Source: Halogeometricum rufum (GTDB taxonomy: Archaea > Halobacteriota > Halobacteria > Halobacteriales > Haloferacaceae). From it: a stretch of 64,000 bases of DNA. The notes below the pieces were generated by a model. The model made no database searches. It was given only the letters and a program-made list of their open reading frames with translations, and had not been told where the DNA came from. The translations under genes were made by a program, and so were the position numbers. Positions 2,270 to 21,298 of this stretch are shown in pieces. The stretch is taken from NCBI RefSeq assembly GCF_900112175.1, contig NZ_FOYT01000001.1, forward strand, positions 682,001 through 746,000, read 5' to 3'. Position 1 is the first letter of the stretch, and the number at the start of each line of letters is the position of its first letter.

Positions 2270-5200
2270 TCACCGTGCCGTCACGATCCCCCAACAGAAA
2301 ATACCTGCTGCAGCTGAGCTCGCACCAGCCAAGGTCGACTGAAAGTCTGGATTCTCCTCAATGAACTCCTCCAGGAAATTGTGCAACTCCGCTAAGAATG
2401 CCTCCGTCTCCCAATCAGTCAGTGCCTTCCCTTCAATCCGGAAGCGCTGACGGAGTTCGTAGTCCTCGTCGGTATTGGCCAACAGGACTCCATTCAGCCG
2501 CTCGTGCAACTGTTCGGCCCACTCGCCGACTTCGGTCGGATCTCCGCCGGGCCCTGTCACTACCTCGGTGTTATTCATCAACCGAAGTTCGAGGTACTGC
2601 AGGAGTTTCTCTTGCTCGACAGAGATTTTGTCCCCTTGTTTGAACGCGCCGCCAACCTGTCCGGCCTGGATTTCTTCCAATCGGCCCTCCAGCTCGTCAT
2701 CGATCCGCTCTTTCAACGACTGGATGTCTCCGGACCCGAGGTCAACTCCCACCGACTGTGTCTCTGGTGCAATCCCTAACCGCCGGACCTTCGCCACTTC
2801 CTCTACATCATCTTGCCCCGTCGCGTGATACAATGCCCGTCGCGTCCGTCCTAACGGCGGCGAACTTCCATCATCGAACCACAGATGTGCTAATCCAAAC
2901 ACACCCGGGTTGACTGTCTCCGGCGAGTTTTGGTACACCGTGTACAGCGGGTCGCGCTCCTGGGGCGGGGTATCGAAGTAATCCACGGCGAAATCGAAGT
3001 CTTCGGGCTCCAGGTCATACGTCTCCACCAGCTGCCGGCGCAGTTCCAATCGCTCCAACGCAGCACGCTCGTCACTGCCGGCATTCCGAAGCAGCGGGTT
3101 CGTACTTACGTCGTCGAGTTCATTGTAGTCCTCGACGGACCGCGTCCGCTCAAGCGACTCGCCGATCTCTTCGACTTCGATTTCCCCGATCGTTTTCTCA
3201 GTTTCAATCCCGGCTTTCTCTAGGGCAGCGTTCTCGTTGGGGTCGAGGATGTTGTTCTCTTTTCCGACGATGAGTGCGATGTCGCTGATCTTGGCCTGCA
3301 ACCGTTCCAGCAGTTTGATCGCCGCCTCGATATCTCCGTCCGGGAAGAAGTTGTGGACGAACTTGTCGTCGGTATTCCCAATGCGGTCAATCCGACCAAC
3401 GCGCTGGACGATCCGCATGGGATTCCACGGCAGGTCGTAGTTCACCACGACTTGGACGTCTTGGAGATTCACACCCTCACTCAGCGTGTCCGTAGCGACT
3501 ACGTACTGGAGCTCGGATTCACCAGACTCGGCCAGCGTTCGCTGGTAACCCGACGCCTCCGGTGCGAATCGCTTGATGACCTCCTGTTTGTTGTCGTCGC
3601 CACCTTTCACCACAGCGCTGTTGGCGTCGGTGACGCGGCTGCTCTTGCGCCGGAGTGACTCATAGACGTAATCGGCGGTCGCCCGGTACTGCGTGAAGAT
3701 GAGGATCTTCTTGTCGTGCTTTTCGATGACCTCGCACAGTTCGTCGATCTTTGGGTCGCGGAAACGCTGGAGGCGGAAAACTTCCTCGTAGAACTCCTTC
3801 GTCTCCTTGATGACGCCCTCCGGATCGCGGGCGGGGTAGATACGCGGATTGATTTCATCTTCGGGCACATCGGGGATCCCCGCCAAGCCGTTTTGTCCGA
3901 GCCACTGGTTGACCCCAACGGAGAGGTCGCTCAATCGGCCAGGCTCCTCGCTGATTTGACTTATGAAAATAGCGAGGAAATACGCCAACAGCGTGATGTC
4001 TTCACGGACATACCGCACCACGTCACCGATCGTCGCATCCTCGAGCTCGTCACTCGATCCATCCGAACGGATCGCGCCGGTGTCAAACCCGAATTCCTCG
4101 AGCGTCTCTTCGATTTGGTTCGCTTCCCGTTCGCTCCCGACGAACTCGGCTAGCGTTACAGGTGCCTCCTCGTCGCTATCTAAGCCCACCTGCAGGGCCC
4201 GTAAGCGCTCGATGTGTTCGTCAGAGGGCAACTCCTCCAATGCACGCAGCAACGCCGTCTCACTGTCGTACAGCGTCTTGATCGACTGGACGAACGCGTA
4301 CGTCGATGACTCAAGCCGCTTGAGGAGATTTAGCTTGAACAGCGCTTTCAGCGTCCCACCGGACTGGGGATTGCGCACCGTAATATGGGGGAGGTGCAGC
4401 GCGTCGATCACTTCCGGGAGATTATCGTAGACCGGCCGATAGGCCCCCGGGAGTTGGTACTCCTCGCGGGTCACCTTCGGCGGCTTGAAACTCATATCGA
4501 TGTCGTCACTCTCGATGATGCTGTCTTTCACGTGCTTGCGCGACCGCAGCACCATGATTTCGTTGAGGATCTTCGAGATCTCCTCGGAACGATCTTGCAG
4601 CTGGTCGTTGATCTTTGCGAGGCGCTCATCGGAGGCCTCTTGCTTTCCGGAGACGATCTCCTTGCGATCTTCGGACTGCTGGACATACTCATCAAAGGCG
4701 TTGAAATCGAGATTCGCCTTGTTCCGGAGTTCGTTCTCGTCGGTGAACAGGCTGATGAGGTTTTGGAGGTCCCGGGCGGAGTTGTTGATCGGCGTCGCGG
4801 TCAGCATAATCATCGTCTTCCCGCGCAACTCGCGGATGTTGGCGTGGCGTCGTGTCCCTTTGTAGTCGTCCTCGTCGTCGGGGCTGGGAGCCCACTTGCC
4901 GTGGTTGCGGAAGCGGTGTGCCTCGTCGATAAGCACCACATCCCACTGCTGCTTGAATTCCTGCAGCGTCTCGTAGGTGAGGTTCTGGAACTTGCTGATG
5001 CTCATGATGTCGAGGTGGGTCCCGTCAACGTCGAGATTGAAGAACGGGTTCCCATCCTCGTCAGTGGCGTCCTGCAACAGGTCTGACCACTGGTCGGTCA
5101 GGTTCGCGGGGACGATCAATAGACACCGCTCGTTGTTCAGCCGATAGTCTCGGAGCAGTTCACCCCCTATGAACGACTTCCCCAGTCCAACTGAGTCGGA

Positions 5201-6049
5201 GACGATACAGCCATTGTAGTTCCCGAGCTTCTCGCGAGCACTTTCGTAGCCTACCGCTTGGAAGTGGTATAGGGGGCTGTCGAGGCGTTCGTCGATATTC
5301 CCCCCGAGGGCGTCGTAGGCGACCAGCTTGTACAGCTCGAACGGCTCGATCTCCGTGCCGAACGTCTCCGATTCGCCACCGTTAGATGCTTTCCAATCCT
5401 GGTAGTTGTCGTTCTGCTGGATGACGTCGATAATATCGAGACTGAACTCCTCGGAGTTGGCCCACTGACTATCGTACCACTCGTCGAACGCCGCGACGTC
5501 GTCTGACTCTTCGGTGGTGAGGTTCAGTTCGATGTTACGTGTGTGACCCGAATGCGTGAAGTTCGATGACCCGACGACGGCAGCGGGCTCGTCGGTCGCG
5601 GGATAGCCGTCTTCGGTTCGAGCGGCGGTGTGGAAGCTCGCGCCCTTCGCATGGAAATAGCCGTCATCGGTGAGGCGAACGCGAACGTCGACGACGCCTT
5701 GTTCGATATACTCGCGGAGTTGATCGACCTGTTCCAGTTGCGCGCTGTTGAGCACAGAAATATCCTCATCTAAGCGCTTTCGGAACGTCTCCCGGAGGGT
5801 CATCCCCTCATCAATCTCATCGGCGGTACGTCGGTCCGTTTCATTCCCCATGAGGATCCTGAGAGGTGCTTGTTCGTCCTCGTTGGTTCCGTGGAGGTGG
5901 TTAAGTGACTCGTCGACGAGGTCGAATCCAGAGAGATAGAAATAGCCGGTGGCGATGCGGATCTCCTGACTTTCAGGGACGAGCGAGTCGAACGTGTCTG
6001 CGAGCGTCTGGCCGCGATTATCGATTAAGCGTTCGAGGTCACCGGGCAT
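2270..6049 (-). CDS. PLD-nuclease/SNF2-family helicase fusion protein
   Basis: A 1259-residue protein joining an N-terminal phospholipase-D/HKD nuclease-like domain (about 1-210) to a SNF2-type superfamily 2 ATPase. The PLD part shows FHAKGASF near residue 133 and the GSSNFTHSG block. Helicase motifs are GLGKS (Walker A, near 288), DEAH near 373, LTATPINNS, and the C-lobe block QRVGRIDRIGN near 888. This architecture is known for HKD-Snf2 helicases found beside restriction-type methyltransferases. The protein probably translocates on DNA and may cut it; only one clear HKD motif is visible, so nuclease activity is inferred. The long C-terminal region (about 900-1259) has no domain I recognise. 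It lies between two paralogous methyltransferases in the same orientation, 75 bases downstream of one and 124 bases upstream of the other. It resembles DISARM DrmD in being a SNF2 helicase beside a methylase, but no drmA, drmB or drmC is visible. Confidence 0.9.
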   Translation of the reverse strand: MPGDLERLIDNRGQTLADTFDSLVPESQEIRIATGYFYLSGFDLVDESLNHLHGTNEDEQAPLRILMGNETDRRTADEIDEGMTLRETFRKRLDEDISVLNSAQLEQVDQLREYIEQGVVDVRVRLTDDGYFHAKGASFHTAARTEDGYPATDEPAAVVGSSNFTHSGHTRNIELNLTTEESDDVAAFDEWYDSQWANSEEFSLDIIDVIQQNDNYQDWKASNGGESETFGTEIEPFELYKLVAYDALGGNIDERLDSPLYHFQAVGYESAREKLGNYNGCIVSDSVGLGKSFIGGELLRDYRLNNERCLLIVPANLTDQWSDLLQDATDEDGNPFFNLDVDGTHLDIMSISKFQNLTYETLQEFKQQWDVVLIDEAHRFRNHGKWAPSPDDEDDYKGTRRHANIRELRGKTMIMLTATPINNSARDLQNLISLFTDENELRNKANLDFNAFDEYVQQSEDRKEIVSGKQEASDERLAKINDQLQDRSEEISKILNEIMVLRSRKHVKDSIIESDDIDMSFKPPKVTREEYQLPGAYRPVYDNLPEVIDALHLPHITVRNPQSGGTLKALFKLNLLKRLESSTYAFVQSIKTLYDSETALLRALEELPSDEHIERLRALQVGLDSDEEAPVTLAEFVGSEREANQIEETLEEFGFDTGAIRSDGSSDELEDATIGDVVRYVREDITLLAYFLAIFISQISEEPGRLSDLSVGVNQWLGQNGLAGIPDVPEDEINPRIYPARDPEGVIKETKEFYEEVFRLQRFRDPKIDELCEVIEKHDKKILIFTQYRATADYVYESLRRKSSRVTDANSAVVKGGDDNKQEVIKRFAPEASGYQRTLAESGESELQYVVATDTLSEGVNLQDVQVVVNYDLPWNPMRIVQRVGRIDRIGNTDDKFVHNFFPDGDIEAAIKLLERLQAKISDIALIVGKENNILDPNENAALEKAGIETEKTIGEIEVEEIGESLERTRSVEDYNELDDVSTNPLLRNAGSDERAALERLELRRQLVETYDLEPEDFDFAVDYFDTPPQERDPLYTVYQNSPETVNPGVFGLAHLWFDDGSSPPLGRTRRALYHATGQDDVEEVAKVRRLGIAPETQSVGVDLGSGDIQSLKERIDDELEGRLEEIQAGQVGGAFKQGDKISVEQEKLLQYLELRLMNNTEVVTGPGGDPTEVGEWAEQLHERLNGVLLANTDEDYELRQRFRIEGKALTDWETEAFLAELHNFLEEFIEENPDFQSTLAGASSAAAGIFCWGIVTAR

Positions 6050-6124: not shown

Positions 6125-9100
6125 TTACGCAAGTTCGTGATACTGCTCGCTGACCATCTCGAGATACTCGTGATCCATCAGCCGTGGGCCGTCGACGAGA
6201 TGGAAGTCGTCGAGGACGAACTGCATCTCCTCGGGGGCCAGTCCGTAGGCGTGGAACGCGGCGGCGTCGATCTCGGCCCGGAGTTGCCGGCGCTCGTCCT
6301 CGTTGGTCACCGGGTCGACGCCGCCCAGTCGCTCGCGCATCTCCTCGAAGGCGTCGCCGTAGCAGTTGAGCTGTGCAGCGCGCGTCCAGATGAACTCGAA
6401 CCACTCATCTCCATGGGTGATCCTAGGCATCTGGGATTCCACGAGCTTGTACATCACAATATGCGAATCAACTTTTGTTCGCATCATAAAATCGAATGGA
6501 ATGCTGTTCAGTAACCCCAATACCGCGAAGAGTTCCTCGTCAGAGAATACACGCTCGTAGACGTTGTGAATAGGATTCTGTGATAGGTCTTTATCGCTTG
6601 GTGAGATATCGAGTGGACGGATTGTATGGAGAGTATGAACGCACATTGTGTCTCGTGGAACGACACTTGCAATAACTGTCCGTTCATCAGTAGCTCTGGC
6701 AACCTCACGCATCACGATCCGGTATTCCGAACTGTCGGGAACGACGTCTTCAGCAGAGAGTCCTTCGCCTCGCTGATCTTCAAGTAGGTCATTGACAAAC
6801 TTCTTCTGCGATTTACTGGTTTTTTCACCTTCAAGTTCATAGTAGAGGGCTCGTTTCAGGTTCCGCAGATCCTTCGATTTGACTCTGGCTCTTGCACCAA
6901 TGGATTCATCGTCAGAATTGAGCCCCCACAAAGACACATCATCGAGGTTGGAGAATTCGTTATTATAGGCGAACTGCCAGACGTTCTTTCCTTCTATGAT
7001 TGGATAATCTCCCTTCTTGGCATCTTCGACGAACAGATCAGAATCCTTCGATCGGTGAAGCTCTGAATATGGTTCTATTTTCCATACCCCGTCGATTTCC
7101 TCGCTGACGGACGGAAAGTCCAGGATACTACTAAGCGTGTCAACTTCGGCTTGGCTACGGATATACGGGAAGATAGCCGCTTCAGAAGAAAATCTTCTAA
7201 GCACGTGTCGCGGAATGTCCGCTGCAGCCTCAGGCATTGTTTCAAGTACGCCTACGTCCGTCTGGTAGAATATCCCCTTGACGCTCTCTGTTTCTCCCGA
7301 GTTCTTGTAGGTTATTATCGAGAATTTGTATCGGCTATCAACATCTGAGAATATTCCCTTATTTTCGAATCCAATGATCGAGTCAACAGATGTCTCCTCA
7401 AGGAGGTGTACTCGCAGGTCCTTTTGAGTTGCTCCATTTGTGATCGCTCCCGGAAGGATCTGTGAAACGTAGCCGTGGTTGGGGGCTAGACTAAAGACGC
7501 GCTCAAGAAATAATGCCGAAAGATCATTTTGGTTGTTCCCGACAGTCTTCCCTCCAATTTTGGGCCGCTGGAGTTGATAATCTGTACTTGCATTGAATAT
7601 ATCCGCCCGCAAGTGCATCCGGTCTCTGAACTGTTCCCAGGCTTGGGAGATTTCAGACTCTTCCAAGAGTTCTTCCTGTTTTTCGTCTTTCTCATTTGGT
7701 GGACGAGTTCTAAAGACCTCATCATATTTTGAGAAGAAGTCGTCTCTGTCAGGACTGAGAACATCCCACGGGGGGTTTCCGATAATAACATCAAATCCGT
7801 TATCAGCCATCGCTTCTGGGAATTCGACTACCCAGTGGAAACAATCGAATTCTTGTAACATCTCAGCTGTAACTTCCTTTACTCCTGCACCTCGGAGGCG
7901 TTTTGCCAGGTCTTCATCTAGTTCGCTTCTGTACCGAGTCATTCGCTGCTCAGCAATACGCCGCCAATTGGCAGCGTCCGAACTGGTGGTAGCGGACCGG
8001 TGATTATTGACTGCCTCAATTATTTCGTCGAATTTTTGTAGTACAGTGTAATCTCCGAGTGTCGTCTCTCCGTCTGAAGATGCTGGTAATTCGTCTGTGA
8101 ACCCCAACAAAGAGTTCCCCTGCCGAATGTTGAAATCGATATTTGGCAGCGGCTCTACTTCATCGGGATCGTTCTCGATATCGGCAACCATCGACAACCA
8201 TAGTCGAAGCTTACAGATCTCAACAGCACCGTCGTCGATATCCACCCCGTACAGATTGTTCAGAACGATCTCCCGCTTGGCGTACAGCGTCTTGCTCCCA
8301 GAGTCTTCCACCTCCTCTAGCGCCTCCTCGATAGCAGGCGTGCGCTCGAACGCCGGCAGCGCCTCGAAGTACTCTAAACAGCTCAGATAGATATCTAAGA
8401 GTACGTCCTGGGCCGCAAGGAGAAAGGCCCCACTCCCGACCGCAGGGTCGATGACACGCCCTTCCTGGAGATGCTCGAAATACAGCGTCTCGATGTGCTC
8501 ACGCTGAATCGAATCTATCGCCCCGATTTGTGCGACGGCGCCCCCATCAGCGATCGCCACATCTGTCCCTCCATCACTTTCGCTGCCCAGCCCGAACAGC
8601 TCGTCAATAGACTCGTAGGACGATCCAACGTCCTCGTTCAATTGGTCAAGGAGATATGGATGAATCGTCTCCCGTGCCATGTAGTCGGTGATCTCAGCGG
8701 GCGTGTAGTACGCCCCCATCTCCTTTTGATTGACAGTCTGCTCGAAGATGTGGCCGAGGATCTCCGGCGAGAGGTTCTTCGGCTCGACGATGTCGAGGCG
8801 CTCGTCGACGTGCCAGTTCCATCCGTCGAGGAACTCTAGAATCCCACCGAATAGTTCGTTTGTCTCTTCTGTGGTCTCGCCAAGTGTCACTTCCGGGAAC
8901 TCCTCCTCGATAGGAGTCGTTGAGAACAGCCCGCCATTGAGGTACGGCACCGTGCCGAAGCCTTCGGCCTGCTTGTTGTCCGCCAGCACCTCGAAGAAGA
9001 GCGGGTTGAAAAACTCCTCGTACACGTCCTCCCCCTCGTCGACGTACTCGGTGTGCTTCTCAAGGAGGTAGTCCGTGTTGAAGTTGAGGAGGTTCTTCTT

Positions 9101-9682
9101 CTGAATGAAATACAAGAAGATGAGACGGTCCATCAGCACTTGCACGTAGCGCTGTTTCGCGTCACCACGGTCGTCAGGAATCCCCGCAACTTCCGTCACC
9201 AGGTCCGTCTGCAGCGACTCGAACTCGGTGTAGAACTCTTTGACGACTTCTCGGGTGTCGTACAACGCTTGGACTGACTGTCCGTCGCCGTACTCGATCT
9301 CGTTGAGTTTGTCCAGCACCGAGAAGCGACTCCCACCGTCTTCAAAGGCACTCCGGTCGAATGAGAACTGTTGGTAGGTGATCCGGCCGGCTTCCCCGAA
9401 TGAACGTCGCCGCGAAATGAAGGTGAATTCCTCGAACTCGTTGGTCGAAACGAGGTTCGTATGCCGACGGTAAGTCATTCGGTTCGTGAACGACTTTGCT
9501 TCCTGCGTCGGTCCGGCTTCGATGATGGAGACGAACTGATCGTCGTCTAGTTCCATCACCAACTCGTCGTCCTCGCCGAGATCCTCACGAGGGACGAGAC
9601 CCCGCTTCTGGAGAGACGTAGAGATATCCTCAAGCGAGGTCCAGCCTGCAACATCGGCCGCAGTAATCTGCTGGGTATCCAT
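6125..9682 (-). CDS. Eco57I/YeeA-type adenine-specific DNA methyltransferase (full length)
   Basis: A 1185-residue predicted N6-adenine methyltransferase. I chose the ATG at 9682 (MDTQQITAADV) because the paralogue begins MDTVFQNITARD; an in-frame ATG at 9700 would add six residues with no counterpart. Motifs: DPAVGSGAFLLAAQ near 410, NLYGVDIDDGAVEICKLRL near 475, and GNPPWD near 634. The region after about residue 640 would hold target recognition, including the PIIEGKNVWQF block. No nuclease motif is evident, so cutting, if any, must come from partners. Composition changes sharply inside the gene: both ends are GC-rich, while about 6420-8090 (residues 530-1087) is AT-rich like the left paralogue, suggesting the specificity part was exchanged. 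The helicase gene follows 75 bases downstream in the same direction. Confidence 0.92.
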   Translation of the reverse strand: MDTQQITAADVAGWTSLEDISTSLQKRGLVPREDLGEDDELVMELDDDQFVSIIEAGPTQEAKSFTNRMTYRRHTNLVSTNEFEEFTFISRRRSFGEAGRITYQQFSFDRSAFEDGGSRFSVLDKLNEIEYGDGQSVQALYDTREVVKEFYTEFESLQTDLVTEVAGIPDDRGDAKQRYVQVLMDRLIFLYFIQKKNLLNFNTDYLLEKHTEYVDEGEDVYEEFFNPLFFEVLADNKQAEGFGTVPYLNGGLFSTTPIEEEFPEVTLGETTEETNELFGGILEFLDGWNWHVDERLDIVEPKNLSPEILGHIFEQTVNQKEMGAYYTPAEITDYMARETIHPYLLDQLNEDVGSSYESIDELFGLGSESDGGTDVAIADGGAVAQIGAIDSIQREHIETLYFEHLQEGRVIDPAVGSGAFLLAAQDVLLDIYLSCLEYFEALPAFERTPAIEEALEEVEDSGSKTLYAKREIVLNNLYGVDIDDGAVEICKLRLWLSMVADIENDPDEVEPLPNIDFNIRQGNSLLGFTDELPASSDGETTLGDYTVLQKFDEIIEAVNNHRSATTSSDAANWRRIAEQRMTRYRSELDEDLAKRLRGAGVKEVTAEMLQEFDCFHWVVEFPEAMADNGFDVIIGNPPWDVLSPDRDDFFSKYDEVFRTRPPNEKDEKQEELLEESEISQAWEQFRDRMHLRADIFNASTDYQLQRPKIGGKTVGNNQNDLSALFLERVFSLAPNHGYVSQILPGAITNGATQKDLRVHLLEETSVDSIIGFENKGIFSDVDSRYKFSIITYKNSGETESVKGIFYQTDVGVLETMPEAAADIPRHVLRRFSSEAAIFPYIRSQAEVDTLSSILDFPSVSEEIDGVWKIEPYSELHRSKDSDLFVEDAKKGDYPIIEGKNVWQFAYNNEFSNLDDVSLWGLNSDDESIGARARVKSKDLRNLKRALYYELEGEKTSKSQKKFVNDLLEDQRGEGLSAEDVVPDSSEYRIVMREVARATDERTVIASVVPRDTMCVHTLHTIRPLDISPSDKDLSQNPIHNVYERVFSDEELFAVLGLLNSIPFDFMMRTKVDSHIVMYKLVESQMPRITHGDEWFEFIWTRAAQLNCYGDAFEEMRERLGGVDPVTNEDERRQLRAEIDAAAFHAYGLAPEEMQFVLDDFHLVDGPRLMDHEYLEMVSEQYHELA

Positions 9683-9703
9683 ACCCGAGCATCCGGCCAC
9701 CCC

Positions 9704-10059: not shown

Positions 10060-11400
10060 ATGTCCAGCCAAGAGATGACTGGAATCGTAATCCTCCCCGC
10101 TGGCCGCGATGACGCGTTCGAGGACTACAGACAATTCATCCGAAGCGGACACCCGATTGACGACATCGAGTACTACCTCGATAAAGACGACATCGAACTA
10201 TTTCGGACGACCTCAGACGACGATCTCGTCCACGTCTGGGGGACCTCAGTAGACAGGACGTGGCAAAACGTCGAGCGCAACGACATCGCACTCGTCTACC
10301 ACGATGGCGGGTTCGTTGCCAGGGGACAAGTCCTCCAACTGCGACATGACCCCGACCTCGCGGAGTACCTCTGGAAGGAGAGCGTCGACCACGGCCGGTG
10401 GGATGACCAGAGTCCTTGGGAATACATGACCTTCCTCACCGATATTGAGGAGGTCGACGTCGACATCGAGGAGTTCAACGAGCTCGTCGGCTACGACGAG
10501 ACCTACCGCCCCCAGGGGTTCACCCGCGTCGCCGACAAACGTCTCGACCAACTTACCGAGGAGGAGTCAGTCGAGACTGCCATTGCCGACCTGACTGATG
10601 CCGGCGAGCGTGTCCACCCTGTCGACGACGAGGACGATGAACCAACTCCTGCCCTCACCGACCAACTCCAGGCGGCCAGCACGAATGGTGACGCCCACGA
10701 GGAGTTCGAGAAGCTCGTTGCAAAGGCCTTCTCCCGGCTGGGGTGTACCGCCGACTGGATCGAGGGCGGCGGTGACACCGACGTGGAGATCCGCTCTCCG
10801 AAACACGTCGTTGTCGAAGTGAAGGCCCGGAGCAACGGGCGAGTCAATTCTCTCGAGGTCACCAACGTAGACAAGCACCGACGACAGCGTGGGGCCGACC
10901 ACGCCATCGTGGTCGCCCCGGGATTTGCTCCGAAAGTCATTGATAACGCCGAGACAACGGACCTGACCACCATCGCCGTCGACGATCTCGTCGAACTCCT
11001 TGACCGTCGAGACCAATATGCTGTCCCACCCGAAGAGACCATAGCCCTCCTGACACGCGCTGGAGCCTTCCAGGATGACAGGCTTGACCTCCTCGATGAG
11101 TCCATACAGGACCGCATCGACGCCGGGGAGACTCTCCTCTCGATCATCCGAGCCCTTGAACGGGCTGACGGACCCGTGAAAACGGCCGAGGATGTCCGGT
11201 GGATCGTCGTCGGAATGGAAGACTCAGACGACATCCCAGCCACGGGGGAGATCCGGTCTGCCCTCCAACTCCTGACCCACTCTAGCGTGGGAGTCGTTGA
11301 ACAGGACGAGAAAGGGTATCGGGTCACCACCGACTACGAGAACGGGGTACAGCTGATACGATCCCTCGGGAACATCGTACAACCATCAAGAGACGAATAA
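10060..11400 (+). CDS. EVE/PUA-like domain fused to Mrr-type restriction endonuclease
   Basis: A 446-residue protein. Residues 1-140 look like an EVE/PUA-fold domain (VHVWGTSVDRTWQNVERNDI, then ALVYHDGGFVARGQVL), a fold used to bind modified bases. Residues 212-290 form an Mrr-like PD-(D/E)xK nuclease: EEFEKLVAKAF, then GDTDVEI near 237 and VEVKAR near 252-256, which supply the D...ExK catalytic residues. The C-terminal 80 residues look like a winged helix. The simplest reading is a type IV-like enzyme that recognises modified DNA through the EVE-like domain and cleaves it. The gene diverges from the methyltransferase/helicase block and may be an independent defence gene or its nuclease arm. 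Start is the first ATG (10060); an ATG at 10075 is also possible. Nuclease call is firm; the N-terminal domain call is moderately sure. Confidence 0.82.
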   Translation: MSSQEMTGIVILPAGRDDAFEDYRQFIRSGHPIDDIEYYLDKDDIELFRTTSDDDLVHVWGTSVDRTWQNVERNDIALVYHDGGFVARGQVLQLRHDPDLAEYLWKESVDHGRWDDQSPWEYMTFLTDIEEVDVDIEEFNELVGYDETYRPQGFTRVADKRLDQLTEEESVETAIADLTDAGERVHPVDDEDDEPTPALTDQLQAASTNGDAHEEFEKLVAKAFSRLGCTADWIEGGGDTDVEIRSPKHVVVEVKARSNGRVNSLEVTNVDKHRRQRGADHAIVVAPGFAPKVIDNAETTDLTTIAVDDLVELLDRRDQYAVPPEETIALLTRAGAFQDDRLDLLDESIQDRIDAGETLLSIIRALERADGPVKTAEDVRWIVVGMEDSDDIPATGEIRSALQLLTHSSVGVVEQDEKGYRVTTDYENGVQLIRSLGNIVQPSRDE

Positions 11401-12412: not shown

Positions 12413-12619
12413 ATGACGTCAAGAACGTCAGAGGCGTTCGCTGGTCGGCTCCCCGCCGACGAAGCAGCCCTCCTGGAAGCAGCAATCGAAGAATCGAGCG
12501 AAACAGAATCCGAGATCGTACGGCGCGCTCTGCGGCTCTACGTTCGGCAAAACCCGGATGACTTCGAGGTCCTCCAATCTCCAGACCCGTTCGAGGCATT
12601 CGTGGAGGAGCTGTTCTGA
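12413..12619 (+). CDS. Ribbon-helix-helix (CopG-like) DNA-binding protein
   Basis: A 68-residue protein starting MTSRTSEAFAGRLP. It has the short RHH layout: a basic strand segment, then helices ADEAALLEAAIEES and ETESEIVRRALRLYV. It lacks any effector domain. Its TGA overlaps the ATG of the recombinase (TGATG), so the two are translationally coupled. An inverted repeat just upstream of its promoter is a probable binding site. The likely role is repressing the recombinase operon, or acting as an antitoxin-like or excision-control factor for the element. An in-frame ATG at 12374 would add 13 residues, but the promoter geometry favours 12413. Confidence 0.75.
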   Translation: MTSRTSEAFAGRLPADEAALLEAAIEESSETESEIVRRALRLYVRQNPDDFEVLQSPDPFEAFVEELF

Positions 12620-13512
12620 TGAGCACTGCTGACGAGTCCTCACCGGTGGAGGGCTCAAACTCGATCGACGAGTGCGAACTCATAACGCGACTCGATGAGT
12701 TCTCCAGCTACCTCCGAGTCCGTCAATCACTCTCGAAGAAAACCGTCGACCAACACCGGTGCATGGTTCGGGCCTTCCTGACGGAAGTCGAGTTGCTCGA
12801 GCCGGAGCCCTCTGACGCGTGGGCACACAAAGAGCGGATGATGGACCAGGGCTACTCGAACAGCCACATCAATAACACGATGAAAGCGGTCGAGTACTAC
12901 TTCGACTACCTGGGGCGAGGCGACGAACTCGCCACGTCCGAACGCCGTAATCTCCCCCGCAAGCGAACGGAACCGAATCCGCTGACCGCAGACGAGGTAC
13001 GCGAAATTCTCGGCACCGCGAAGACGTACCGGGATACGGCTATCTTCCGCGTGTTGGTCTCGTCTGGAATCCGGAAGTCGGAACTCGCGAACCTCGACAT
13101 CGAAGACGTGAATCTCGAACGGCGACGGCTGACGATTCACGAGGGCAAGGGGAACAAAGACCGGACGGCGGTCATCTCCTCAGAGTGCGCCGACGCGATC
13201 AGCGCGTATCTCCTCCGCCGCGAAGACGCCGAGACCGACGCTCTGTTCCTGTCGCGCTACGGGAACCGATTGACGCCGAACGGCGTGTATCAACTGGTCA
13301 AACGGACGGTCGCCAGAACCGATATCGAACGGAACGTGAAGGTGCACACTTTCCGCGCGACGTTCGCTCAGCGTCTCAAGGAGAACGGAGCGGACATCTA
13401 CCGAATCAAGGAACTCCTCGGCCACGATGACATCCGCTCGACGATGGTCTACCTGCGAATGGAGCCCGACGAGCTGGGACGCGAGCACGACAAGTACTAC
13501 GTTGATTACTGA
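12619..13512 (+). CDS. Tyrosine recombinase (XerC/D-like integrase)
   Basis: A 297-residue site-specific recombinase. Residues 25-110 form a SAM-like core-binding domain (FSSYLRVRQSLSKKTVDQHR). The catalytic domain has every expected residue: Arg in SSGIRKSEL (about 151), Lys in GKGNKDR (about 180), HTFR (about 241-244), His in LLGHDD (about 268) and the nucleophile Tyr in TMVYLRM (about 277). It is therefore likely active, breaking and rejoining DNA at an attachment site. It overlaps the preceding RHH gene by the shared A of TGATG. The only tRNA-derived attachment-like site in the window is at 21250-21291, about 7.7 kb away, so this enzyme is a candidate integrase for the island; it could also belong to a smaller nested element. 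Confidence 0.92.
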   Translation: MSTADESSPVEGSNSIDECELITRLDEFSSYLRVRQSLSKKTVDQHRCMVRAFLTEVELLEPEPSDAWAHKERMMDQGYSNSHINNTMKAVEYYFDYLGRGDELATSERRNLPRKRTEPNPLTADEVREILGTAKTYRDTAIFRVLVSSGIRKSELANLDIEDVNLERRRLTIHEGKGNKDRTAVISSECADAISAYLLRREDAETDALFLSRYGNRLTPNGVYQLVKRTVARTDIERNVKVHTFRATFAQRLKENGADIYRIKELLGHDDIRSTMVYLRMEPDELGREHDKYYVDY

Positions 13513-15758: not shown

Positions 15759-16226
15759 CTAATCAGACGAGAACTGAGGCAGTCGAGTCATCTGCGTTTC
15801 AGCCGATTCAGGGAAGTACTCCCGAAGCGTCGCGTCCATTTCCGGATCGGGATAATAGAACGAAACAGGCGGAACGAACTCCTTGAACAGGTCGGTCGGC
15901 GTGATTGGCTCTTGGAGGCGGTAAACAGTATCGATTTTGATGGCGTACCCGGTCTTGACACCTTCATAGTAATCCATGAACTGCTCTCGTTCCTCGATAC
16001 CGGACTGATCACCGAATAGCCCCCACATCTCCTCTGGCGACGCTTCGATAATACGCTGGTAGGTGAAGCCTCCAATTATTTTCATCACAGGCGAGGATGC
16101 GTAAAGGTAGACGAAGTCGATAGAGTCTGCGTCGCTGAAGATGGTGCGACGGAACTCGTATTGTTTCTCGCCAGCCAGAATCTTCTCCCCGAACTCTGGC
16201 TTAATAGAGAGCAAAGCGTTCATCAA
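15759..16226 (-). CDS. ASCH-domain (PUA-superfamily) protein
   Basis: A 155-residue protein that opens with the ASCH signature NALLSIKPEFGEKILAGEKQ followed by YEFRR. The pattern VYLYASSPVMKIIGGF completes the PUA-like barrel seen in COG4933 proteins. ASCH domains are thought to bind RNA or modified nucleic acid bases. The start codon lies inside the 3' end of the PIN-GNAT-PUA gene (26-base overlap, 16201-16226), so both are very probably made from one transcript and act together. Start could be 16226 or the next codon, 16223. The rest (residues 100-155) has no known domain. Confidence 0.82.
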   Translation of the reverse strand: MMNALLSIKPEFGEKILAGEKQYEFRRTIFSDADSIDFVYLYASSPVMKIIGGFTYQRIIEASPEEMWGLFGDQSGIEEREQFMDYYEGVKTGYAIKIDTVYRLQEPITPTDLFKEFVPPVSFYYPDPEMDATLREYFPESAETQMTRLPQFSSD

Positions 16227-17697
16227 TGCCTCCTTCTGTCTTTATATACTTATACTCTTCTTCACCGATTGAGTGGATTGCTTGTGGGGCCCACGATAGT
16301 ACGTCATCATCTATTAAAGTCTCAAGCGAGAGGGGATTCTCTAAGTCGAAGTGCCACGAGAATCGAATCACGGTTGTCGGCTTCTCTGCCATCTCCTCGA
16401 TCTCCTGCTCAGAGAACACAGACCGTTTGCCGACAAACTTCTGAATTTTGTCCGAATCGGTAGTACGGGAAAGAACTTCCTCACAGACGCCCAACGACGT
16501 AATCTCCTTGTGATCCTTCGAGCGGTAGAACAGTAGGATATCACCTGAAGACAATTTTGTAATGCGCGAATGGGAGAGATACGCCTTATGGATAGCATTC
16601 CCCTCAGAGTTGAATTCCCCCATGAACTCGCCGAGTCCCGGCTGTCGCTTTGAGTAGCCAGTGAAGAGCTTGTTATGGTACCGAGGCTGAATCGGAATGA
16701 GGAACTTCTCAACCTCCTCACCATCATAGAACGACGGGTAGTAACGCCGAGCAATCTCTGATGGGTCGATGGTCGTGTCTGGTGGAGGCGTAAGCCGCTT
16801 GAGAAAGATTTCTTCTCCGTCATCTCGATTCGATTCATGCTCAAACCCATATCTCTCGATGAGTCTCACCAAGTAGTCTTCCTCGTGGTCGACGTAGTGC
16901 GTGAGATAGACCTGATCGATTTCATACCCGATCGCTTCCCGGATGGCGATGGAGATGAGAAGCTCGCCAAGTTTCGAGCCCCACTGCACCTCTCCGACTT
17001 TGAGAGTGGAGATCTTCAGCCGTTTCTCACGCCCAAGCGGTGGATCTACGCCGATCTCCTCAATCTCCTTCGGCTTAAGGATAAGGACTGCACCAAGCTG
17101 TCCTCCATCGGTATAGTTGACCCAAGCTGGGCGGTCCGACTTTGAATTCGCCCACTTAACGAACTCGTCGTACTCTTTCTTGAGCGAGTCGAAGATGGGA
17201 TCCGAAAGGTCCAATTCTCCGAAAGTAGTCCGCTGGATTGCTGCAGGCCCGCGAATTGGTGGCCGCTCAGATTGGAAGTGATCACGTCCTTCTGCAATGG
17301 TGAAAACCCGGTCTTCGATACCGAGATCCATCGCCTTCTTATGGATGCCTCGATCCTCGGTGATCAGGAACTCTACAGCGTCAGCGAAAACTGCGTAGAG
17401 TAGCATGTTGTCCACTCTGTCGTTGCCCGTCGCCTTTTTAACACGCTGTCTGAATTCGGAGTCGTTACCGCTGGGCGTAGGTGGGTAGGAAAGCTCAAGA
17501 TACGTCTCGATTCGGGATTCGTTTCGTTTCCGCCGTTCCTCGTTGCTGTCTTTCCTGAGTTCGTCGGCCGAGAAAGGGTGTATCAAAATGGTGTGTCCCT
17601 TCTTTTTCAACGACTGTTCCAGTTCGCGGAGGGGTTCTGGAACGATGTCGTCATCCTCTCGGTGAATGAAGATGTTTGTGTCAATGAGAATTTTCAT
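16201..17697 (-). CDS. PIN nuclease-GNAT acetyltransferase-PUA-like fusion
   Basis: A 498-residue three-part protein. Residues 1-130 are a PIN ribonuclease domain with acidic positions D6 (LIDTN), E46 (SADEL), D96 (RVDNMLL) and D115 (TEDRG). Residues about 150-310 look like a GNAT acetyltransferase, with GSKLGELLISIAIREA as the probable acetyl-CoA loop and helix. Residues about 330-480 look like an EVE/PUA-like domain (LSSGDILLFYRSKDHKEITS, GVCEEVL, FVGKRSVFS). A PIN RNase tied to an acetyltransferase and a base-reading domain suggests a toxin or defence effector acting on tRNA or other RNA, with the overlapping ASCH protein as partner. That is inference; the domain order is what the sequence shows. 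No partner antitoxin of a classic type is visible. Confidence 0.8.
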   Translation of the reverse strand: MKILIDTNIFIHREDDDIVPEPLRELEQSLKKKGHTILIHPFSADELRKDSNEERRKRNESRIETYLELSYPPTPSGNDSEFRQRVKKATGNDRVDNMLLYAVFADAVEFLITEDRGIHKKAMDLGIEDRVFTIAEGRDHFQSERPPIRGPAAIQRTTFGELDLSDPIFDSLKKEYDEFVKWANSKSDRPAWVNYTDGGQLGAVLILKPKEIEEIGVDPPLGREKRLKISTLKVGEVQWGSKLGELLISIAIREAIGYEIDQVYLTHYVDHEEDYLVRLIERYGFEHESNRDDGEEIFLKRLTPPPDTTIDPSEIARRYYPSFYDGEEVEKFLIPIQPRYHNKLFTGYSKRQPGLGEFMGEFNSEGNAIHKAYLSHSRITKLSSGDILLFYRSKDHKEITSLGVCEEVLSRTTDSDKIQKFVGKRSVFSEQEIEEMAEKPTTVIRFSWHFDLENPLSLETLIDDDVLSWAPQAIHSIGEEEYKYIKTEGGIDERFALY

Positions 17698-17963: not shown

Positions 17964-19832
17964 GTGGCTAGCGCTCCCAGCCCAGAATCAAACACTGTCG
18001 CTCAGGTACTCCCCCGACTGAATGATTCCCTATTCATCCCCTGCCTCCAGCGCGATTACTGTTGGAGTCAAAGGCAGGTTGAGATGCTTTGGGACTCGTT
18101 ACTTCGCGGTCTCCCGCTTGGATCACTTCTCATATGGGACAGCACAGTCGAAACCCGACAGGACCCGGCATACAAATTCATCAGGCATTACGTCGATGAG
18201 CGAGGCTACTCGCATGAGGAGGAGGTCCACCGTTACAGTGAGCGCCTCCCTGACTTTCCGGAATCATACTCGCTCATTCTTGATGGCCAACAACGACTGA
18301 CTTCGTTCTACATTGGCCTCCACGGGAGCTATACAACACGGGTGCATGGGGCATGGAAGAAGAACGCGAGTTCGTACAACCGGCGTCATCTGTATCTCAA
18401 CCTCCTCTCTGGAGAGAAGAACGATGACCACGACCGTGGTCTCGTGTACGAATTCGACTTCAGAAAGAGCGGCGGGCTGAACACTGCAGGCGACAAGTAC
18501 TGGCTCTCCGTGAGTGACCTCTTAGACGCGGAGGATGAGCTCACTCAGAGGGCATTCCTCAGTAAGGACAAGTTCGTGGAGAGTGTACGTTCCGAGCTAC
18601 CGCCAACCATCAGCAAGGCAGATGCATTGGATACTGTAGAGGACCTCTGGCGTGGTGTAAACGAGCGAGAGGCCGTCCTCTACGAAACAACAGTGACCAA
18701 AGACAAAACGGCACGAGAGCTATTCATTCGTCGCAACAAAGGTGGAATAGAGCTTTCAGGCGTCGATATTTTGCTTGCATTGCTTACTGGCTATTGGGAT
18801 ACGGTTAGTGACGAAGGTGGGCCGAAGGATGCGAAGAACGAGATAGAGCAGTTTACTGAGCGACTCTCTGGTCACGATCGTCTCTCTGACGAAGGATTCT
18901 CATTTGGCAAGCGGTTCACCCTCAGGACTCTGCTGTTACTAGCTGACGAGACGCCCTCATTCAGGAGAGATGGCCGTTACGACGGAGAGTTGTTGAAGAA
19001 TTCTGAGGAGATCTTCCGTGACGATGAGTTCGAACAAGCAGTCGAGGATGCGTTTGAGGTCGCTGCTGACCTCGGGTTCCACAACGCCGCCCTCTCCAGC
19101 AAGAACGTCGTTGCACCAGTGGTCCAATTCCTCTACGAGAACGACTACGACACGTCTGAGGGAAACGAAAACATCCACTACTGGTTGGCCACAGCAGTCC
19201 TGAACAGCATCTACGGCGATATTGGGTCGCAACGAGTGCTGGAGACGGCTCGGGAACATGTACGAGAGTCGGATGGGAAAGAATTCCCCGCGGCAGAGAT
19301 TCTGGAGGACCTGAGTGGCCGAGGAACGACGACACACCTTGACAAAGATGTCCTTGATGGGCTGCTCGAAGAGGTAGACTACCAATCCGGCTCGCGGCTG
19401 AACGTGCTACTGACACACCTCTACCGAGGCGACCGACGAGCAGGTTACGCAGGATATGAGGTCGATCATATATTCCCCCGAAGAAAGCTTGCCAAGGCCG
19501 AGTACCTCCAAGACCGAGGCGTCTCCCCGGAGCTCGTTGAATGGTACAAGGACAACCGCGACCATATCGGCAACCTCCAGCTTCTCACTGGACCGGAGAA
19601 TAAGTCAAAAAGCGACCGTGACTTTACCGACTGGATAGCCCGGATTGAGAATGGAAAGGTCGAAGGTGTCCAAGATATTGATAATTACTTCAGTACACAT
19701 CAAGTTTCGCCTGACAGGGACCTGCACAAGTATCCGCAGTTCAAGCAGTTTGTGATGGGTGAAGGAAATCGGCGACAAAGGATAACCGAGCGGCTACGGG
19801 AGACTCTTCCCCTGAGGCAGCTACCAGAGTAG
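17964..19832 (+). CDS. GmrSD-type (DUF262-DUF1524) modification-dependent endonuclease
   Basis: A 622-residue single-chain GmrS-GmrD-like protein. The N-terminal DUF262 part has LQRDYCWSQRQVEMLWDSLL near residue 28, LPLGSLLIWD, and the DGQQR nucleotide-handling motif near 107. The C-terminal DUF1524 part has an HNH-type nuclease: YEVDHIFPRRKL near 498, then DNRDHIGNLQLL near 530 and ENKSKSD near 545. Known relatives are type IV enzymes that cut phage DNA with glucosylated or otherwise modified cytosines, using a nucleotide for activity. All nuclease residues appear intact. It starts with GTG (17964), supported by a TATA-like box 29 bases upstream. It stands alone, facing away from the PIN-GNAT operon. 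Confidence 0.9.
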   Translation: MASAPSPESNTVAQVLPRLNDSLFIPCLQRDYCWSQRQVEMLWDSLLRGLPLGSLLIWDSTVETRQDPAYKFIRHYVDERGYSHEEEVHRYSERLPDFPESYSLILDGQQRLTSFYIGLHGSYTTRVHGAWKKNASSYNRRHLYLNLLSGEKNDDHDRGLVYEFDFRKSGGLNTAGDKYWLSVSDLLDAEDELTQRAFLSKDKFVESVRSELPPTISKADALDTVEDLWRGVNEREAVLYETTVTKDKTARELFIRRNKGGIELSGVDILLALLTGYWDTVSDEGGPKDAKNEIEQFTERLSGHDRLSDEGFSFGKRFTLRTLLLLADETPSFRRDGRYDGELLKNSEEIFRDDEFEQAVEDAFEVAADLGFHNAALSSKNVVAPVVQFLYENDYDTSEGNENIHYWLATAVLNSIYGDIGSQRVLETAREHVRESDGKEFPAAEILEDLSGRGTTTHLDKDVLDGLLEEVDYQSGSRLNVLLTHLYRGDRRAGYAGYEVDHIFPRRKLAKAEYLQDRGVSPELVEWYKDNRDHIGNLQLLTGPENKSKSDRDFTDWIARIENGKVEGVQDIDNYFSTHQVSPDRDLHKYPQFKQFVMGEGNRRQRITERLRETLPLRQLPE

Positions 19833-20088: not shown

Positions 20089-20586
20089 GTGACCTCACCG
20101 GCTAATAAGATCATGAGTGGAGACCTATTTCGAATCACCGTTGACGAAACGAACTACAGTCGTGTACTCGGAACTTCTCCGGATGAATCGCTGCTGACAG
20201 ACGCTCACCTTCAGGAGCTTCGAGGGTCCCGACTGTGGGCTCAAAAAAACACCGAGAAAGGCCAAGAAGTCTATGATGCGATGGAACCCGGAGACGGTCT
20301 TCTCTTCTACAAAGTCAAACGTGGGATTGCCCCCGACGAAGGCATGTATGTTGGAACTGGCAGAGTCGGTGAGAAAGTTCGGTTAGACGAGGAGCAGGCG
20401 AGGATACTTTTTAGAACAACAGTAGCAACGCTCGCATACACTGTGACTGAGTTCAATCAAATCAGAAAATCAATTGAAGAAGTAGAATCCGCGCTTGGTT
20501 ATGTGTCTTACCCACAAAGTAGCCATCGAGTCACCAACAATCGATACACCACCGTCGACAGAGCACTAAAAATGCTATCCCATTGA
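20089..20586 (+). CDS. Stand-alone EVE/PUA-like domain protein
   Basis: A protein of 165 residues (GTG start) or 157 residues (ATG at 20113, MSGDLFRITVDETNYSR). The layout is EVE-like: a first strand LFRITVD, then RGSRLWAQKNTEKGQEVYDA, then MEPGDGLLFYKVKRGI and YVGTGRVGEKV, where a channel is typically opened to let the fold bind a nucleobase. EVE and related PUA domains read modified bases in DNA or RNA. It is monocistronic, downstream of the GmrSD-type gene by 256 bases. It has no nuclease part of its own, so it may be an accessory sensor for one of the neighbouring systems. Confidence 0.65.
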   Translation: MTSPANKIMSGDLFRITVDETNYSRVLGTSPDESLLTDAHLQELRGSRLWAQKNTEKGQEVYDAMEPGDGLLFYKVKRGIAPDEGMYVGTGRVGEKVRLDEEQARILFRTTVATLAYTVTEFNQIRKSIEEVESALGYVSYPQSSHRVTNNRYTTVDRALKMLSH

Positions 20587-21249: not shown

Positions 21250-21291
21250 CTCATAACCGAGTGGTCGATGGTTCGAATCCGTCAGGGCCCA
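21250..21291 (+). other. 3' half of a CAT-anticodon tRNA, probable island attachment site
   Basis: The segment gives an anticodon loop CTCATAA (anticodon CAT, 21252-21254) and the 3' anticodon strand CCGAG. It also gives a T-arm in which GATGG pairs with CCGTC around TTCGAAT, and a 3' acceptor strand AGGGCCC with discriminator A; CCA is not encoded. The matching 5' acceptor strand and D-arm are absent upstream, so this is only the tRNA 3' half. Tyrosine recombinases commonly integrate into tRNA 3' halves and leave such a copy at the far end. Composition changes from mixed to high-GC here. The intact tRNA should lie to the left of the window. Confidence 0.72.
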
Positions 21292-21292
21292 T

Positions 21293-21298
21293 AAAAAA
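21293..21298 (-). terminator. Oligo-T transcription end of the oxidase/halocyanin operon
   Basis: A run of six T on the minus strand, about 63 bases after the halocyanin stop and following a GC-rich stretch. Short oligo-T tracts are the normal archaeal termination signal. Confidence 0.35.

Follow-up and report, generated by a model that had tools for sequence, protein, structure and literature searches.

A PIN-GNAT-EVE protein and its overlapping ASCH partner as a putative toxin-antitoxin type defence module on a mobile island of Halogeometricum rufum

In the 64,000-nucleotide stretch of the Halogeometricum rufum genome analyzed here (the window), a gene for a fused PIN-GNAT-EVE protein (gene A) overlaps a gene for an ASCH protein (gene B). 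On balance, we favor reading A and B as a defence module of the toxin-antitoxin type that belongs to the (PIN)-GNAT-EVE/ASCH family and resides on a mobile defence island. We propose A as the effector and B as its antitoxin because of their fixed overlap, the persistence of B where A has been lost, a HigA-like helix-turn-helix (HTH) on one ASCH partner, the GevT/GevA annotation of a phage homologue, and the location of such pairs in defence islands and restriction operons. Toxin-antitoxin logic for the pair appears likely, RNA or translation as the target of A is put forward tentatively, and a trigger linked to restriction systems seems doubtful. If the toxin-antitoxin reading is true, a single toxin chain of the PIN-bearing forms would carry two candidate catalytic domains of different kinds.

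Domain architecture of the gene pair

The coordinates of the two genes, their domains and the surrounding element are shown in Table 1. PADLOC matched both proteins over their full length, A as PDC-M11A and B as PDC-M11B, which are both candidate defence families. A few full-length homologues of A and B with 54-66% identity were found in other haloarchaea, and thus the two genes are not chance open reading frames. Gene A is present as a single copy in the H. rufum genome. As in PDC-M11, PIN, GNAT and EVE domains lie in one chain of A, and the ASCH gene B is adjacent.

Of 16 members of the family, 9 gave a match to Pfam PIN_3 (best 1.7e-6), with H. rufum A by itself below the Pfam cut-off. The metal site (D6, E/D46, D96 and D115), which corresponds to the four acidic residues of PIN-domain RNases, was kept in all 46 PIN-bearing homologues, both archaeal and bacterial. 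A profile search with the PIN region returned no convincing solved structure, and no separate PIN fold match was obtained for A, whose fold lists were occupied by GNAT rows; the PIN assignment therefore rests on Pfam and the conserved residues. When A was modelled with AlphaFold from 27 sequences (mean pLDDT 84, pTM 0.66), the middle segment matched solved GNAT structures, including TacT3, and K228, G240, G244 and E245 of this domain were invariant in the alignment of homologues.

A sequence-only reading of this DNA had proposed that a PIN RNase, an acetyltransferase and a PUA-like reader are fused in one 498-residue chain, and that this chain is paired with an ASCH gene, giving two reader-type domains. 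The architecture was borne out as PIN-GNAT-EVE by PIN_3 and the fold matches, the pairing by the PADLOC assignment, the ASCH fold of B and the homologous pairs, and the two readers correspond to the EVE-like barrel in A and the ASCH domain in B. The same reading would have been abandoned had the middle segment lacked a GNAT fold or had homologues regularly lacked the PIN acidic residues; residues 148-305 do match solved GNATs, and the acidic residues are kept in all 46 PIN-bearing homologues, although many phage-borne homologues have no PIN domain at all.

Table 1. Features of the A/B pair and of the element that carries it
Feature	Position (window unless stated)	Strand	Evidence or remark
Gene A, PIN-GNAT-EVE protein, 498 aa (PDC-M11A)	16201..17697	-	ORF; PADLOC 2.9e-166; homologues
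PIN domain, residues 1-145; acidic residues D6, E46, D96, D115	17263..17697	-	PIN_3 in 9/16 members; acidic residues 46/46
GNAT acetyltransferase domain, residues 148-305; loop G240-x-K-x-G244-E	16783..17256	-	VIA-align Z ~15 to solved GNATs (AlphaFold model)
EVE/ASCH-like beta-barrel, residues 326-493	16219..16722	-	Z ~14.6 to ZmASCH; weak Pfam EVE match
Gene B, ASCH protein, 154 aa from ATG 16223 (PDC-M11B), proposed antitoxin	15759..16223	-	PADLOC 4.4e-43; model and fold match to ZmASCH
A/B overlap, 23 bases, B in +1 frame	16201..16223	-	exactly 23 bases in 35/39 branch clusters
SD-like GGAGG for B, within A	16229..16233	-	sequence; SD-like matches more frequent ahead of B starts than of other ATGs
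tRNA-Met-integrated element	1-21293, left end in L180; G000:C1:675596-703293		44-base direct repeat
PLD-SNF2 helicase	2273-6049		within element
Type IIG-like enzyme	6128-9700		within element
Mrr-type endonuclease	10060-11400		Pfam: Mrr_cat only
Second integrase	12619-13512		within element
Divergent GmrSD/HEC-05 gene	17964-19832		within element
Small EVE-like protein, downstream of GmrSD gene	20089-20586		Pfam EVE E 0.00094, below curated cut-off

A fixed overlap between A and B

The two genes overlap by 23 bases. The 26 bases given by the sequence-only reading included an upstream TTG, and homologues place the start of B at the ATG listed in Table 1. When homologues of A were clustered at 70% identity, exactly 23 bases of overlap were observed in 35 of 48 clusters, 25 with PIN and 10 labelled as lacking it (three of the latter, L158, L160 and L170, are broken archaeal copies and not true PIN-less forms). 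These 35 clusters include archaeal and phage members with protein identity down to 23%, and they make up all but four of the 39 clusters in the branch with this junction. The exceptions are one overlap of 29 bases, in which the stop codon of A lies two codons further, one of 26 bases with a TTG start, and relocations of B at L012/L141 and at L137. Different junctions are found in proteobacterial and actinobacterial copies. In the branch with the 23-base junction, the pair is inherited as an overlapping unit, as expected of type II toxin-antitoxin genes. In addition, a Shine-Dalgarno-like match of at least 5 bases precedes 17 of 36 B starts, compared with ~2% of other ATGs in A.

In a tree of the GNAT-EVE region, the 23-base junction was present on either side of the midpoint root, and the phage branch had two PIN-bearing archaeal rows at its base. 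Therefore, PIN and the overlap are probably ancestral, with PIN lost in the phage forms, a polarity that depends on the midpoint root. Judging from the junction shared by archaea and bacterial phages, the module looks old.

B lies in the +1 frame, and a programmed frameshift fusing A and B was considered, yet no convincing slippery site could be seen on inspection by eye. A natural uncoupling of the overlap was observed in the L137 viral contig, where B (2357-2734) is on the opposite strand upstream of A (4001-5059).

Distribution and one-way loss of gene A

Of the 393 euryarchaeal genomes sampled, 42 gave a strong match to A. Homologues also occurred in the archaeal virus psiM100, on bacterial plasmids and in many prophages, the bacterial sampling of the pair consisting of plasmids, phages and viral contigs. 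In Escherichia coli, A and B sequences were each found in 274 of 5426 genomes, as near-identical copies.

All of the ~31 intact A genes in the euryarchaeal set belonged to genomes that also have B, and no intact A without B was found among the 393 genomes. Conversely, A was lost or broken and B intact in nine of them (G163, G179 (C46), G249, G283, G344, G167, G331, G337 and G422) and in two further haloarchaea (G019 and G013), giving 11 genomes and no reverse case, although some of the broken or frameshifted A genes may be assembly errors. One case, that of G337, is a clean deletion, in which ~1.6 kb holding A is gone and the retained B is 92% identical to that of the syntenic G319. Since A is 3.2 times longer than B, we corrected for length; the probability of observing no reverse loss was then ~0.05 for the 11 cases (0.04 had been obtained with 12, before G176 was dropped because its B also looks damaged). 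After this correction, the one-way loss is no more than suggestive of B being the antitoxin. On a Halalkaliarchaeum plasmid (L010:8001-9944), an internal stop or frameshift disrupts A but B is intact; a type I-B CRISPR-Cas locus lies nearby.

Gene B and its ASCH relatives

The model of B (pLDDT 88.6) has an ASCH fold, and its closest match is ZmASCH of Zymomonas mobilis (Foldseek 2e-12; HMM 4e-20). The crystallized ZmASCH (5GUQ) comes from a protein whose name describes it as HTH-containing; cleavage of single-stranded RNA has been reported for ZmASCH, involving Tyr47, Lys53 and Ser128 (PMC5615036). Apart from fold and family, the two proteins share Tyr47 and Ser128, which correspond to Y41 and S121 of B in the HMM alignment, whereas B has M47 at the position of Lys53 and ZmASCH derives from an HTH-containing protein. 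The reported nuclease activity speaks against a plain antitoxin role, as B could itself be an enzyme. With the solved ZmASCH structure now linked to B, mutants can be chosen.

An HTH-ASCH gene lies upstream of the A homologue in Rhizobium etli. In this rhizobial partner, the ASCH half matched ZmASCH, and the HTH half matched structures of the antitoxins HigA3 and HigA2.

The fold matches of B also included YqfB, an ASCH protein acting on N4-acetylcytidine (ac4C), which raised the possibility of a writer-eraser pair in which the GNAT domain acetylates cytosine and the ASCH protein strips the acetyl group. The GxKxxxxR motif is indeed kept in B (K20 and R25, equivalent to K21 and R26 of YqfB). 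However, the position of the YqfB nucleophile Thr24 is occupied by Glu (E23) in all 22 aligned B proteins, the YqfB T24A mutant is inactive, and B is much closer to ZmASCH. Because the catalytic Thr is replaced, B is unlikely to act as a deacetylase; we rejected B as a YqfB-type ac4C amidohydrolase for want of the Lys-Thr-Glu triad and regard the writer-eraser scheme as very improbable.

Relationship to known systems and proposed mode of action

The sequence-only reading stated that the combination had no assigned function, which does not hold. Bell, Wolf and Koonin (2020; PMC7641849) described (PIN)-GNAT-EVE and ASCH operons as putative toxin-antitoxins, with a citation of Iyer et al. (2013), and already noted their restriction association and ASCH-HsdS fusions. 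PADLOC lists the combination as PDC-M11A/B, and a PIN-less homologue from Escherichia phage PhiR47_2 is annotated as GevT toxin and GevA antitoxin (GenBank PV340567.1). The H. rufum pair shares domain order, ASCH partner and restriction association with the Bell 2020 family and PDC-M11, and nothing sets it apart from them except that it is a haloarchaeal member. GevT/GevA resembles A/B in its GNAT-EVE core, its ASCH partner and an identical 23-base overlap, but GevT lacks PIN and shows ~28% identity, and its name comes from the record annotation. GNAT toxins such as TacT likewise combine a GNAT effector with a small partner; however, the GNAT domain of A is fused to PIN and EVE, and B is an ASCH barrel, whereas the TacT-type partner is a ribbon-helix-helix protein. 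In the literature searched, we found no paper on GevT/GevA or PDC-M11 and no experiment on a PIN-bearing member, the family having been predicted in 2013-2020. Thus, the combination is already catalogued, and the comparative evidence (overlap, one-way loss and HTH-ASCH partner) is new. The overlap fixed across archaea and phages, the one-way loss of A and the antitoxin-type HTH of the rhizobial partner are testable facts.

We propose that A acts as the effector, with its GNAT domain, common to the PIN-less phage versions, as the core activity, most likely acetylating a nucleic-acid or translation substrate. The EVE-like barrel would place A on a base, possibly a modified one, and PIN would add a second effector of the RNase type that was probably present in the ancestor and disappeared from the phage branch. 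B would restrain A by direct binding, and its synthesis may be tied to that of A through the fixed overlap and an internal ribosome site; toxicity, neutralization, substrate and trigger are what we infer here. The 'effector pair' of the sequence-only reading is accordingly kept for A and given up for B, which the evidence points to as the antitoxin of A. The RNA target and the modified-base trigger that this reading suggested would be candidates at this stage.

The mobile island and restriction neighborhoods

The A/B pair lies within an element of 27.65 kb that has a 44-base direct repeat of tRNA-Met at either end. The intact tRNA-Met, which is abutted by an integrase of the element, ends near G000:C1:675639, and the repeat copy is at window 21250-21293. 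GC content is 0.47-0.59 within the element and mostly 0.65-0.73 outside. As for other PDC-M11 loci, restriction and defence genes are found nearby, namely the Mrr-type, GmrSD/HEC-05, type IIG-like and PLD-SNF2 genes. By eye, the N-terminal 110 residues of the Mrr-type endonuclease resemble EVE/PUA.

In methanogens, the pair was located inside type I restriction operons, and the neighbor tally agreed with this. The gene order at L153 is hsdR, A, B fused to HsdS, and hsdM, and at L171 both genes lie between hsdR and hsdS. Large type IIG/DrmMI-like enzymes adjoin the pair at the haloarchaeal loci L002 and L140, and at L138 the pair is next to a protein of that size. Such neighborhoods, together with the island shared with Mrr, GmrSD and type IIG-like genes in H. 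rufum, are the basis of a restriction-guard explanation, for which PrrC beside EcoprrI offers an analogy: B would dock on, or be part of, a restriction complex and hold A inactive, and phage inhibition of restriction would free A to attack translation. Considering that the pair is also present in prophages where no restriction genes occur and that the H. rufum copy is outside any hsd operon, we find this explanation, drawn from gene neighborhood, unlikely. Less likely still is its extension to a restriction-guarding toxin-antitoxin conserved from archaea to phages, in which the ASCH antitoxin, as the physical link to the restriction complex, would explain its HsdS fusion, and disabled restriction would release a dual nuclease-acetyltransferase and shut down the cell.

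The same fusion would also fit a specificity role for B, as argued by Bell 2020 (PMC7641849), and EVE and ASCH are both reader-type folds. A and B might be a modification-dependent defence without toxin-antitoxin logic, jointly recognizing through EVE and ASCH a modified invader nucleic acid that A then cuts or acetylates, with B as a co-factor or second reader. An antitoxin accounts better than a co-factor for the persistence of B where A has been lost and for the HigA-like HTH of its rhizobial counterpart, and we give this alternative a low probability, retaining the toxin-antitoxin module as the preferred reading.

Rfam gave no match at gathering score around the pair. Nearby tRNA genes were also considered as a clue to the target and set aside, being seen at only one of 39 loci scanned; this is the Lactobacillus prophage Lj965 (L049:4328-4904), in which four tRNA genes lie just upstream of a GNAT-EVE/ASCH pair. 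Additional GNAT proteins adjoin some pairs. At L156:6667-8361, a B homologue is fused to a GNAT and a C-terminal ASCH/EVE-like domain (565 aa) next to a full PIN-GNAT-EVE gene, and in two methanogens the gene directly downstream of the pair (L141:9853-11115 and L142:10627-11895) encodes a second GNAT protein, 421-423 aa long and ASCH/EVE-like at its C-terminus.
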